From positions 1 to 30,433 of the IMG/VR virus record IMGVR_UViG_3300011115_000460: a stretch of 30,433 nucleotides of DNA, one strand, 5' to 3'. Origin of the DNA: a virus. Position numbers and translations under genes: made by a program. Below the pieces are notes generated by a model, which saw only the letters and a program-made list of their open reading frames with translations, had not been told where the DNA came from and did not search any database. Numbering within the stretch: the stretch's first letter is position 1; every line of letters starts with the position of its first letter. Below, piece after piece: positions 6,456 through 9,616 of the stretch.

Positions 6456-6490
6456 GCCCATAGTTAGTAAAATAGCTATGGGCTTTATTA
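6456..6490 (+). terminator. Intrinsic terminator after the recombination operon
   Basis: GCCCATAG (6456-6463) pairs with CTATGGGC (6476-6483). The stem extends inward by a G-U and two A-U pairs to 11 bp with a 6-nt loop, and is followed by TTTATTAT. It begins 10 nt after the stop of the Gp157-like gene. The T-tract is imperfect, which lowers confidence a little. Confidence 0.75.
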
Positions 6491-6717: not shown

Positions 6718-7089
6718 ATGAACTGTACCAAAATTGAAAAAGTGTTGCGAGAACAAACCATTAATATGTTCTCAAAAGAGTGGTATCATAACACATCTTT
6801 GATAATTGCTAAAAGTATTGAAGCACCATCACCAAGATATGGAGATGTGGTCTTAAATTTTTCGCTAAAGGAATTTCAAAAACTAAATGATTATTTTGAA
6901 ACATTGCAATTAAATTATATTTATACCAATAGAGATTTTTTACCCATTGTTTCCGATATAATTCCAAACATCACTCCAAAAAGAGTAAGGATGGAATTAA
7001 AAAGGTTTGCAATTGAAAAAAAACTATACATTAAAGAAAAAAACACTACACCATTTGGTAGAACATTTGTTTTACTAAAAGATTATTAA
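6718..7089 (+). CDS. Possible winged-helix DNA-binding protein, 123 aa
   Basis: I cannot name the family. The N-terminal half is mixed (I-E-K-V-L-R-E-Q-T, then K-E-W-Y-H-N). The C-terminal half runs F-L-P-I-V-S-D-I-I, I-T-P-K-R-V-R-M-E-L-K-R-F-A (about residues 87-100), then K-K-L-Y-I-K-E-K and a final strand F-G-R-T-F-V-L-L. A helix, a turn, a basic recognition-type helix and a beta hairpin are the order of a winged helix. It is the first gene after the origin-like gap and precedes the primase, so it might be a replication initiator or a regulator of this operon. Confidence 0.5.
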   Translation: MNCTKIEKVLREQTINMFSKEWYHNTSLIIAKSIEAPSPRYGDVVLNFSLKEFQKLNDYFETLQLNYIYTNRDFLPIVSDIIPNITPKRVRMELKRFAIEKKLYIKEKNTTPFGRTFVLLKDY

Positions 7090-7097
7090 TATATTTG
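7066..7097 (+). promoter_or_regulatory. Promoter TTTG-N20-TATATTTG ahead of the primase leader
   Basis: TTTG at 7066-7069 (inside the end of the preceding gene), a 20-nt spacer and TATATTTG at 7090-7097 fit the Bacteroidota consensus. The expected start near 7101 gives an unusually long structured leader of about 120 nt before the primase ATG at 7223. Confidence 0.7.
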
Positions 7098-7122
7098 CAA
7101 ACCGATTTTAAATAATAATAGA

Positions 7123-7221
7123 ATGATACAGATTCTAAATAATAATATTGGCAGCAATGCCAACAACAAACCATCTACTTACTTGGCTGTATCCCTTGTA
7201 AGAGATGGTTTTGTTTTCTAA
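7123..7221 (+). CDS. 32-codon leader ORF upstream of the primase-helicase
   Basis: An ATG at 7123 opens 32 codons and ends at the TAA at 7219-7221, leaving one base before the primase ATG at 7223. The peptide begins M-I-Q-I-L-N-N-N-I-G-S-N-A-N-N-K, with six Asn in eleven residues, then a hydrophobic end. Both RNA hairpins of the leader (7148-7163 and 7168-7211) lie within it. It may encode a real small protein, or act as a leader peptide whose translation controls hairpin folding. No other evidence of function exists. Confidence 0.45.
   Translation: MIQILNNNIGSNANNKPSTYLAVSLVRDGFVF
7148..7163 (+). other. Small RNA hairpin with GCAA tetraloop
   Basis: TTGGCA (7148-7153) and TGCCAA (7158-7163) form a perfect 6-bp stem closed by GCAA, a GNRA-type tetraloop that is especially stable in RNA. 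It precedes the larger hairpin by 4 nt in the primase leader. Confidence 0.5.
7168..7219 (+). promoter_or_regulatory. Terminator- or attenuator-like hairpin at the primase start
   Basis: AAACCATCT (7168-7176) pairs with AGATGGTTT (7203-7211), and CTTAC (7178-7182) with GTAAG (7198-7202), giving 14 bp with a single bulged A and a 15-nt loop. TTTTGTTTT overlaps and follows the 3' arm, as in an intrinsic terminator. The hairpin also buries the in-frame ATG at 7205. It is therefore a candidate attenuator or translation switch for the primase gene. Confidence 0.5.
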
Positions 7222-7222
7222 T

Positions 7223-9616
7223 ATGATAGTTACAATATACAAATCTCTAAAAGAGGTTACCAATGGATTTCAGCGTGATGTTAACTATGTCTTTGAGCGC
7301 ATTAGGTCTGGGAAGTCACAAAAGTTAATCGAACAAATTCAAGCGGAAACAGATGAGGAAAAGCAGCAGGCACTTAAAAAAGAGTTACCTGCAATAAATT
7401 TTCAAGGTGTTTTCAAGGAGCGAAATGATAAAGGAATAAAGCAATTTAGCGGATTGATGCCATTAGATTTTGATAAGTTCAAAGATAAGGCTGAAATGAC
7501 TGCGCTAATGGACTCATTAAAAGATAATGAGTATGTATTCGCAATGTTTATTTCGCCTCGTGGAAATGGCTTTAAATTGATAATTAAGATACCTTTAGAT
7601 GGTGCATCAAATTACAAAGGTTACTTTGATTCATTAAAGAACTATTTTGATTCTGATTATTTTGATGCAAGTAGTAGTAATATTTCAAGGTTGTGCTACG
7701 AAAGTTATGACCCAAACATTTACATCAATCCAAAGGCTTTAATCTATAATGAAGTTGAAGAACCAGAGTATAGTGACATAGGAACTATAACACCAATATT
7801 TGCCATAAATAGTGATAATAGAATAATTTCAAATTTACTTACTTGGTGGAAGAAAAAATATGGCAACACTAAAGGGAGTAGAAATACAAACCTATTCAAA
7901 TTAGCAATGGCATTGAACTGCTTTGGCATTGATAAGCACGAAGCATTGAACGTACTTAACGAATTTCAAGAAAGTGATTTCACACTATCGGAAATTGAAA
8001 CCTTATGCAAATCAGCCTACAAAAAATCTGAAGTACACGGAACGAGATTTTTTGAGGACAATGCCATTAAGTTTAAAATTGAGAAGCAAGTTAGGCAGGG
8101 AAAAACTGCAAAAGAAATAATTAAACTATTGCCAGATGTTGACCCTAAAAAAATTGATGAGGCATCAGAAACTATTAGAGAAAATATTGACATAGAAGAC
8201 TACTGGTCATTCGATGACAAAGGAAAGTTTAAATTGTCACCTCATAAATATAAATTTTGGCTGGAGAATAACAACTTTTCTAAATTCTTTCCAACCGAAA
8301 GTAAAACCTTTACGTTTATTCAGATTGACCAAAATCAAGTTGAAGAAACTAATGAGAAAAGAATAAAAGATTATGTCCTCAATAATTTAATGGAGCGCAA
8401 AGATATTGGCTATTCTCCATACGATTCAATGGCATCTTCAACTAAAGCATTCAACATTGATTTTCTTGGTTTACTTGCAAGTGCTAACATCAAGATTAAA
8501 GAAGACACGCAAGATGAGATATTTCTTTACTACAAAAATTGCGTTGTTAAAATCACTAAAGATAGCTTTGAAACTATTGATTACCTTGATGTTGATGGTT
8601 ATGTTTGGAAAAATCAAATTATTGATAGAGATTTTGCCATTAAAGACCATCACAATAGTGAATATAGAAGTTTTATCTGGTATATTGCTGGAGAAAATAA
8701 GCAGAAATATAACACTTTTAAATCAGTAATAGGCTATTTAATGCATTCCTTCAAGACCTCTGCCAACAACAAGGCAGTAATTCTTAACGATAGTGTAATA
8801 AGCGAAAACCCAAACGGAGGAAGCGGCAAGGGCTTATTTTGCAATGCTTTAAGTCACTTGAAAAAGGTAAGCAGCATTGATGGGAAAACCTTTGATTTTA
8901 ATAAATCGTTTCCCTATCAAACAGTAAGTACGGACTGCCAATTGTTAGTATTCGATGATGTTAAAAAAAACTTTGACTTTGAGCGTTTATTCTCTTTGAT
9001 TACTGAAGGAATAACTATCGAATATAAAGGGCAGGATGCAATCAAGCTACCAGTACAGAAGTCACCGAAAATTATAATCACTACTAACTACACAGTAGGT
9101 GGTGTGGGTGGTAGTTTTGAACGCAGAAAGTTTGAAATTGAACTATCCGATTACTTTAACGCTGGTAACACACCATTGATGAAGTTTGGCAAGTTACTAT
9201 TTGATGAGTGGGATGATGATGAGTGGAGTAGGTTTGACAATTATATGATTCAATGCGCCCAATATTACCTCAACAAAGGTTTAGTGTCTGCTGAATTTGG
9301 AAATATTCACACACGCAAATTCATCAAGAACACCTCATTTGAATTTTACGAATGGACAAAGACACACGAAGTTTTCTCATTCAACGATAGGCTTTCAAAG
9401 AGAGAGAAGTATAATGAATTTCTTGAAGAGTATCAAGACTTTAAGAAGTGGCTTTCACAAAAGAAATTCAAACAATGGCTTGAAAACTATTGCACTTTTT
9501 ATGACTACAAATATGCTGAAGGTAATTCAACACCAATAGGCAGGTGGTTTACCATTGAGAATGAAACTAAAATGTGGGAAGATTTAAGAACTGAAGAAAA
9601 ACCAAGTTTTCAATGA
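7223..9616 (+). CDS. Primase-helicase (VirE-N/AEP-like primase with SF3-type ATPase)
   Basis: This 797-aa protein combines two replication activities. The N-terminal part resembles the BT4734/VirE-N primase-like domain: G-L-M-P-L-D-F-D-K with Asp82 and Asp84, then S-P-R-G-N-G-F-K-L (111-119). A linker region with a primase C-terminal-like helical domain follows. The C-terminal half carries a superfamily 3 helicase core: Walker A G-G-S-G-K-G (532-537), Walker B L-L-V-F-D-D (Asp578, Asp579) and a sensor stretch I-I-I-T-T-N-Y, ending in an E-R-R-K-F-E-I segment. It would open the replication fork and prime synthesis. The ATG at 7223 is chosen over one at 7205 because it follows the leader ORF stop by one base and the earlier ATG lies inside a hairpin. 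Confidence 0.85.
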   Translation: MIVTIYKSLKEVTNGFQRDVNYVFERIRSGKSQKLIEQIQAETDEEKQQALKKELPAINFQGVFKERNDKGIKQFSGLMPLDFDKFKDKAEMTALMDSLKDNEYVFAMFISPRGNGFKLIIKIPLDGASNYKGYFDSLKNYFDSDYFDASSSNISRLCYESYDPNIYINPKALIYNEVEEPEYSDIGTITPIFAINSDNRIISNLLTWWKKKYGNTKGSRNTNLFKLAMALNCFGIDKHEALNVLNEFQESDFTLSEIETLCKSAYKKSEVHGTRFFEDNAIKFKIEKQVRQGKTAKEIIKLLPDVDPKKIDEASETIRENIDIEDYWSFDDKGKFKLSPHKYKFWLENNNFSKFFPTESKTFTFIQIDQNQVEETNEKRIKDYVLNNLMERKDIGYSPYDSMASSTKAFNIDFLGLLASANIKIKEDTQDEIFLYYKNCVVKITKDSFETIDYLDVDGYVWKNQIIDRDFAIKDHHNSEYRSFIWYIAGENKQKYNTFKSVIGYLMHSFKTSANNKAVILNDSVISENPNGGSGKGLFCNALSHLKKVSSIDGKTFDFNKSFPYQTVSTDCQLLVFDDVKKNFDFERLFSLITEGITIEYKGQDAIKLPVQKSPKIIITTNYTVGGVGGSFERRKFEIELSDYFNAGNTPLMKFGKLLFDEWDDDEWSRFDNYMIQCAQYYLNKGLVSAEFGNIHTRKFIKNTSFEFYEWTKTHEVFSFNDRLSKREKYNEFLEEYQDFKKWLSQKKFKQWLENYCTFYDYKYAEGNSTPIGRWFTIENETKMWEDLRTEEKPSFQ

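Follow-up and report, generated by a model that had tools for sequence, protein, structure and literature searches.

The stretch of DNA analysed here, hereafter called the window, is a contig of 30,433 nt from an IMG/VR virus record. It carries a primase gene that is preceded by a promoter and a structured leader (Table 1). A 123-amino-acid ORF without family match occupies positions 6718-7089, such that the leader promoter lies in and just past its 3′ end, and further upstream, after a Gp157/Gam-like gene, there is a conventional terminator-like hairpin (GCCCATAG..CTATGGGC followed by TTTATT, positions 6456-6483). The promoter (TTTG-N20-TATATTTG) fully matches the −33/−7 consensus of Bacteroidota. 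In Flavobacterium johnsoniae promoters, the G of the −7 box resides at −5 (PMC6847099), and when it is placed there in the window, transcription is predicted to start around position 7102 and to yield a leader of about 121 nt, in agreement with the consensus promoter and the leader of about 120 nt of the original prediction. A second in-frame ATG at position 7205 falls within the 3′ arm of hairpin P3 and is absent from relatives such as L010, so that position 7223 is the likely start of the primase.

Table 1. Features of the primase leader; positions are those of the window
Feature	Position	Strand	Remarks
−33 element TTTG	7066-7069	+	Bacteroidota promoter; consensus TTTG/TANNTTTG (PMC6847099)
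−7 element TATATTTG	7090-7097	+	predicted transcription start at about 7102
P1, 5′ hairpin TAGAAT-[GATACAG]-ATTCTA	7119-7137	+	outermost pair UA to AU on both sides in 5/14 sequences
Leader ORF, 32 codons	7123-7221	+	open in window clade; neither peptide nor Asn run conserved
P1 loop, 7 nt, kissing strand a, GATACAG	7125-7131	+	GATGCAG in L010-L014 and L090; compensatory AU to GC
P2 hairpin TTGGCA-[GCAA]-TGCCAA	7148-7163	+	window clade only
P3, terminator-like hairpin	7165-7215	+	predicted by folding; eight pairs altered on both sides
P3 apical loop, 7 nt, kissing strand a′, CTGTATC	7187-7193	+	CTGCATC in L010 group; exact complement of P1 loop
T-run TTTTGTTTT	7209-7217	+	3′ side of P3; from sequence
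Primase gene, putatively regulated	7223-9616	+	BT4734-like N-terminal and PriCT_1 domains

The leader region folds better than all of 200 shuffled sequences (z = −3.75). Both hairpins that had been proposed at the outset, a 6-bp stem with a GCAA tetraloop (P2) and a large hairpin followed by the run TTTTGTTTT (P3), are indeed present, the latter with about 17 pairs, a further two close to the loop and a predicted folding energy of about −20 kcal/mol. The earlier list of features included neither the 5′ hairpin P1, which begins 21 nt past the −7 box, nor the complementarity between its loop and the apical loop of P3. Both loops comprise 7 nt and are fully complementary, from which a kissing complex of 7 bp is predicted for the window; P1 and P3 thus represent a candidate kissing-loop pair, with two hairpin loops that are complementary within the usual range of about 6-8 nt. 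P3 also has the make-up of an intrinsic terminator, a G+C-containing stem followed by a T-run, with some of the T-runs being weak. A standard terminator scan of the window did not flag P3, because the limits set in the scan for loops and internal loops exclude it. A dedicated detector (see below) located the end of P3 11 nt ahead of the primase start, with the elements arranged in the order promoter, P1, P3, T-run and ATG, and reported no further kissing leader with a score above 16 in the window. The pairing first appeared, at 80 loci in relatives, as an interleaved pattern conserved in position but not in sequence, and was resolved on closer look into two hairpins with complementary loops. 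A plain H-type pseudoknot model was dropped after P1 had been recognized, except for a subgroup (L024, L032, L121, L123, L128) in which the 5′ strand does not form a clear hairpin.

The original prediction was that this leader acts as an attenuator governed by translation of a leader peptide. A 32-codon ORF with six asparagines in eleven residues is present as described (MIQILNNNIGSNANNKPSTYLAVSLVRDGFVF*, with the run NNNIGSNANNK), and its TAA stop codon (7219-7221) ends one base ahead of the primase ATG. The ORF is open in all variants of the window clade, where it terminates at or overlaps the primase start, and this speaks for a coupled leader peptide. The peptide itself does not: in L010 and L012, whose primases are 85-88% identical, the ORF reads MMQILIHNIGLIAKQSPCVIG... 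and lacks the asparagine run, substitutions within the first 13 codons are distributed 2, 3, 3 over the codon positions without third-position bias, and inspection of leader sequences from other clades (e.g., L024, L032) revealed no comparable ORF. A conserved ORF with a run of regulatory codons, the hallmark of leader-peptide attenuators, is therefore not seen. Pairing of the linker or P1 with the 3′ arm of P3 or with the T-run was considered as an antiterminator and rejected; over 32 leaders, the mean pairing between 5′ segments and the 3′ arm of P3 was 5.3 nt compared with 5.2 nt after shuffling, i.e., it equals chance. Since pairing of 5′ segments with this arm does not rise above that level, the usual antiterminator alternative is absent, and with it the mutually exclusive pairings by which attenuators switch. 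Translation-dependent sensing of asparagine is thus extremely improbable, while the promoter, the structured leader and the terminator-like hairpin directly before the primase gene stand, and support the broader notion of an attenuator-like element.

In order to assess the structural model, we collected 14 distinct close leaders and used column shuffles and slid partners as controls. Paired cells amounted to 95.0%, compared with 83.7% in column shuffles and 39-45% with slid partners. Changes on both sides were observed for ten pairs: eight belong to P3, and P1 (UA/AU) and the kissing helix (AU/GC) contribute one each. The mere number of such pairs is not in excess (10 versus 9.5 in column shuffles), whereas the number of cells changed on both sides is (52 versus 20.9, reached in 0 of 500 shuffles); the changes mainly separate two subclades and hence reflect few independent events. 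The compensatory changes that had been sought in both originally proposed stems thus exist for P3 but not for P2, which showed no covariation among the 14 leaders and whose top pair is broken in five of them. Orthologous leaders of a sister clade contain the kissing pairs GTGGTGG/CCACCAC (L031), CTGGAAG/CTTCCAG (L028) and GTGGTAG/CTACCAC (L037, L163), in which three of the seven kissing positions are changed with compensation. Strands a and a′ might alternatively be read on the DNA level as inverted half-sites of a repressor operator, with the hairpins being incidental. Inverted repeats near a promoter and the position of P1, which overlaps or is near +1 in many elements, are in line with such an operator, but each of the half-sites is positioned precisely within a hairpin loop, the stems covary on their own, including a change from U-A to a U-G wobble in P3, and the T-runs are confined to one strand, all of which makes an operator very unlikely.

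The same design is encountered with unrelated sequences, as exemplified by GTATT[GGTCCAG]AATAC with CTGGACC (L060), AGTATT[GGCCAG]AATACT with CTGGCC (L055), TTCAATA[GTTGCGT]TATTGAA with ACGCAAC (L038) and GAGTT[GGTCAG]AACTC with CTGACC (L054). When leaders were chosen solely by homology of the primases and the apical region of the strongest hairpin near the start codon was compared with the upstream 75 nt, complementarity surpassed that with shuffled upstream sequence in 18 of 32 leaders at p < 0.05 and in 9 of 32 at p < 0.01, noting that many of the 32 are related and do not constitute independent tests. The remaining cases are mostly leaders of a second type (see below) or cases in which the script picked the wrong stem; in L024, L032 and L182 it took the kissing pair itself as the hairpin. 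A detector combining P1, linker, P3 and T-run was then applied to 1.2 Mb of phage and related DNA and yielded 45 distinct matches on the forward strand, compared with 10 in shuffled sequence and 25 on the reverse strand; of these reverse-strand matches, two are true elements in oppositely oriented loci. The forward excess is concentrated among high scores and among matches with a gene 9-30 nt downstream. The TANNTTTG box is not part of the detector, and among forward matches scoring at least 23.4 it is located 0-9 nt ahead of P1 in 22 of 33, compared with 0.26 expected and 0 of 23 on the reverse strand. This position of the promoter box is the clearest independent support for the generality of the element. 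With a distance of mostly 3-5 nt between the box and P1, the hairpin comes to lie at about +1 in many phages. The linkers between P1 and P3 are A-rich; a shared motif, AAA..TT[AT], occurs in 19 of 42 (shuffled mean 7.5, maximum 17 in 500) and is weak, as it was picked after inspection.

The genes downstream of the elements encode primases and nucleases of the HNH, NUMOD4 or GIY-YIG types. Among isolated phages, phi10:1, phi19:1, elemoA and morran9-1 (in the latter case spotted by eye in the sequence) have the leader before operons leading to primase/helicase, and in 11b and P2559S it precedes genes whose relatives in other phages encode replication proteins. In two of these genomes an annotated CDS overlies the leader RNA: morran91_gp042 (L284, 258-401) probably does not represent a real gene, and gp48 of P2559S, whose annotated beginning covers the leader (L249, 33955-34000), probably starts at position 34000. 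In L059, L127, L137, L155 and L183, nuclease-like genes lie between a kissing leader and the primase, with the leader directly before the inserted gene; those that could be identified are of the HNH, NUMOD4 or GIY-YIG type. In Cellulophaga phage Nekkels_1 (L287, 2540-2680), a leader before the replication operon seemingly has two loop pairings (GTCTAAC/GTTAGAC and TTGGAA/TTCCAA). The top-scoring element of all, AGAG[ACGCGAC]CTCT with the partner GTCGCGT (L179, 2418-2530), stems from a contig binned as an Ignavibacteria MAG and suggests a spread past flavobacterial phages. An occurrence in host genomes was considered and rejected: 574 kb of Pedobacter and Flavobacteriaceae chromosomal DNA, including a Pedobacter prophage region, gave 22 matches; a start codon lies no more than 45 nt away in only three of them, and none is convincing. 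The leader was not found in the relatives L016, L057, L171 and tant8-1, and one sister group carries a different one, referred to as type 2 (L040). This second leader is located about 100 nt before the primase in L040, L051, L056, L058, L063, L072 and L212 and has the layout GGGG-GTTGTCGGAGGCATCCAC-TTAAAAGG[TTCACTGTT]CCTTT-CCCC-T8-AACAGTGAA-ATG. Its terminator loop is complementary to a segment past the T-run, and it is strongly conserved in sequence, riboswitch-like, without an Rfam match for L040.

The reading that best accounts for these observations is that of a cis-acting, kissing-loop terminator leader that controls entry into the replication genes, and we assign it a probability of about 60%. 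RNA polymerase would start near position 7102 and form P1 first, to be followed, after the linker, by the intrinsic-terminator-like P3, with its end about 10-20 nt upstream of the primase start codon. The apical loop of P3 and the loop of P1, both 7 nt long, would then pair and thereby dock the beginning of the transcript onto the terminator hairpin, and docking would set how often polymerase or ribosomes get past P3 into the gene. The most likely outcome would be premature termination, unless a phage or host factor or the timing alters the docked structure; control would thus act on the docked terminator without a swap to an antiterminator hairpin. The structure itself, that is, the hairpins, the complementarity of their loops and their order, is well supported by the sequence comparisons, whereas the direction of control and its trigger are inferred. 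A weak point is that some T-runs are short or displaced (TTTTGTTTTC in the window, CTTTATT in L010, AACTTTTT in L031), and termination may therefore be weak. Kissing and closure of P3 are compatible with each other, so that it is not evident how docking would affect termination, and neither a trans factor nor an alternative fold was identified.

The short distance between the end of P3 and the start codon also suits control of translation and makes it the main rival to termination. The docked leader, with P3 adjacent to the ribosome binding region, might act on translation or mRNA life by shielding the 5′ end or gating the entry of ribosomes, and the T-run would then be no more than an unstructured spacer. 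In most matches, 9-27 nt separate the stem of P3 from the ATG, P1 begins at about +1 in many phages, and in F. johnsoniae structure around the start codon tunes translation (PMC6847099). On the other hand, a mere spacer needs no adjoining T-run, and when pseudoknots were scanned for without any T requirement, at least five T within the 8 nt past the stem were present in 21 of 30 forward matches compared with 1 of 29 on the reverse strand; upstream of other ATGs, at least five T occur in 13% of 9-nt windows. We thus regard an action on translation or mRNA life as the less probable option, albeit one to be taken seriously.

Kissing loops, terminators and leader control are all known, and several established systems resemble the element in part. 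Plasmid attenuators of the pT181 type likewise combine kissing hairpin loops with a leader that contains an intrinsic terminator and controls a replication gene. There, however, an antisense RNA supplies the partner loop and antiterminator pairing occurs, while here the partner loop is part of the same transcript and antiterminator pairing was not found; moreover, no TANNTTTG is present on the minus strand between position 7215 and about 7480 from which an antisense RNA opposite the leader could originate. In purine riboswitches, hairpins are docked by loop-loop pairing, and riboswitches of this type resemble the element in having two docked hairpins followed by a terminator. In contrast to them, the element has no conserved aptamer core, nor do the elements share any other core, as their sequences are wholly different, and the docked loop belongs to the terminator hairpin itself. 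Plain intrinsic terminators share the stem and the T-run, but not the position upstream of a gene or an apical loop that exactly complements the loop of a 5′ hairpin. Flavo-1 (RF01705) and the 64 structured 5′ regions of F. psychrophilum (PMC9723704) are also structured RNAs upstream of Flavobacteriaceae genes; the elements described here differ in residing in phage DNA and in having no Rfam match at the gathering score. Searches of 14 loci with Rfam retrieved no family at this score, and searches at a loose threshold gave only sub-threshold matches. One of these, to S15-Flavobacteria in the window (E = 0.072, 30.3 bits versus a gathering score of 46.5), extends from the promoter to P1 only and was rejected.

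The CI RNA of phage P4 and the C4 antisense RNA of phage P1 are associated with a primase-operon leader that contains internal complementary segments and terminates early. The likeness to the present leader raises the option of immunity or copy control in trans, in which terminated leader RNA would accumulate, pair with nascent leaders of the same type and increase termination ahead of the primase operon. The position before a primase or replication operon agrees with this, as do loops that diverge strongly between phages and yet stay self-complementary, as specificity determinants would. Nevertheless, the compact order P1-linker-P3 and the loop-loop pairing are unlike P4 CI/C4, homing nucleases and small genes are also preceded by elements, the same pairing is reached faster in cis, and neither an integrase nor a repressor is among the window genes that were checked. 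A covariance search gave no match to the C4 antisense family (RF01695; PMC2864571). Furthermore, elements within one phage have different loops (L038, L037, L054, L059), which fits orthogonal pairs that act in cis better than one shared regulatory RNA. Altogether, we consider regulation in trans unlikely.

The open-access literature on kissing or loop-loop attenuators, P4 immunity and leaders of Flavobacterium phages yielded no description of this combination of known parts, which possibly constitutes a distinct class. More tentatively than the assignment of the primase leader itself, and with odds slightly below even, we propose that a sequence-independent class of cis-regulatory RNA, hitherto undescribed, is widespread in phages of Bacteroidota, in which a hairpin at or near +1 docks via 6-8 kissing base pairs onto the loop of a terminator near the gene start, each gene has its own orthogonal loop pair, and a structure-specific factor probably reads the docked form. 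As the design rather than the sequence is conserved, family searches with sequence profiles (Rfam in our case) miss such leaders. Gene control in Bacteroidota phages is poorly known, and a recognizable leader at the head of replication operons offers a testable handle on the timing with which replication is switched on, as well as a naturally occurring collection of orthogonal kissing-loop terminators for hosts in which genetic parts are scarce.
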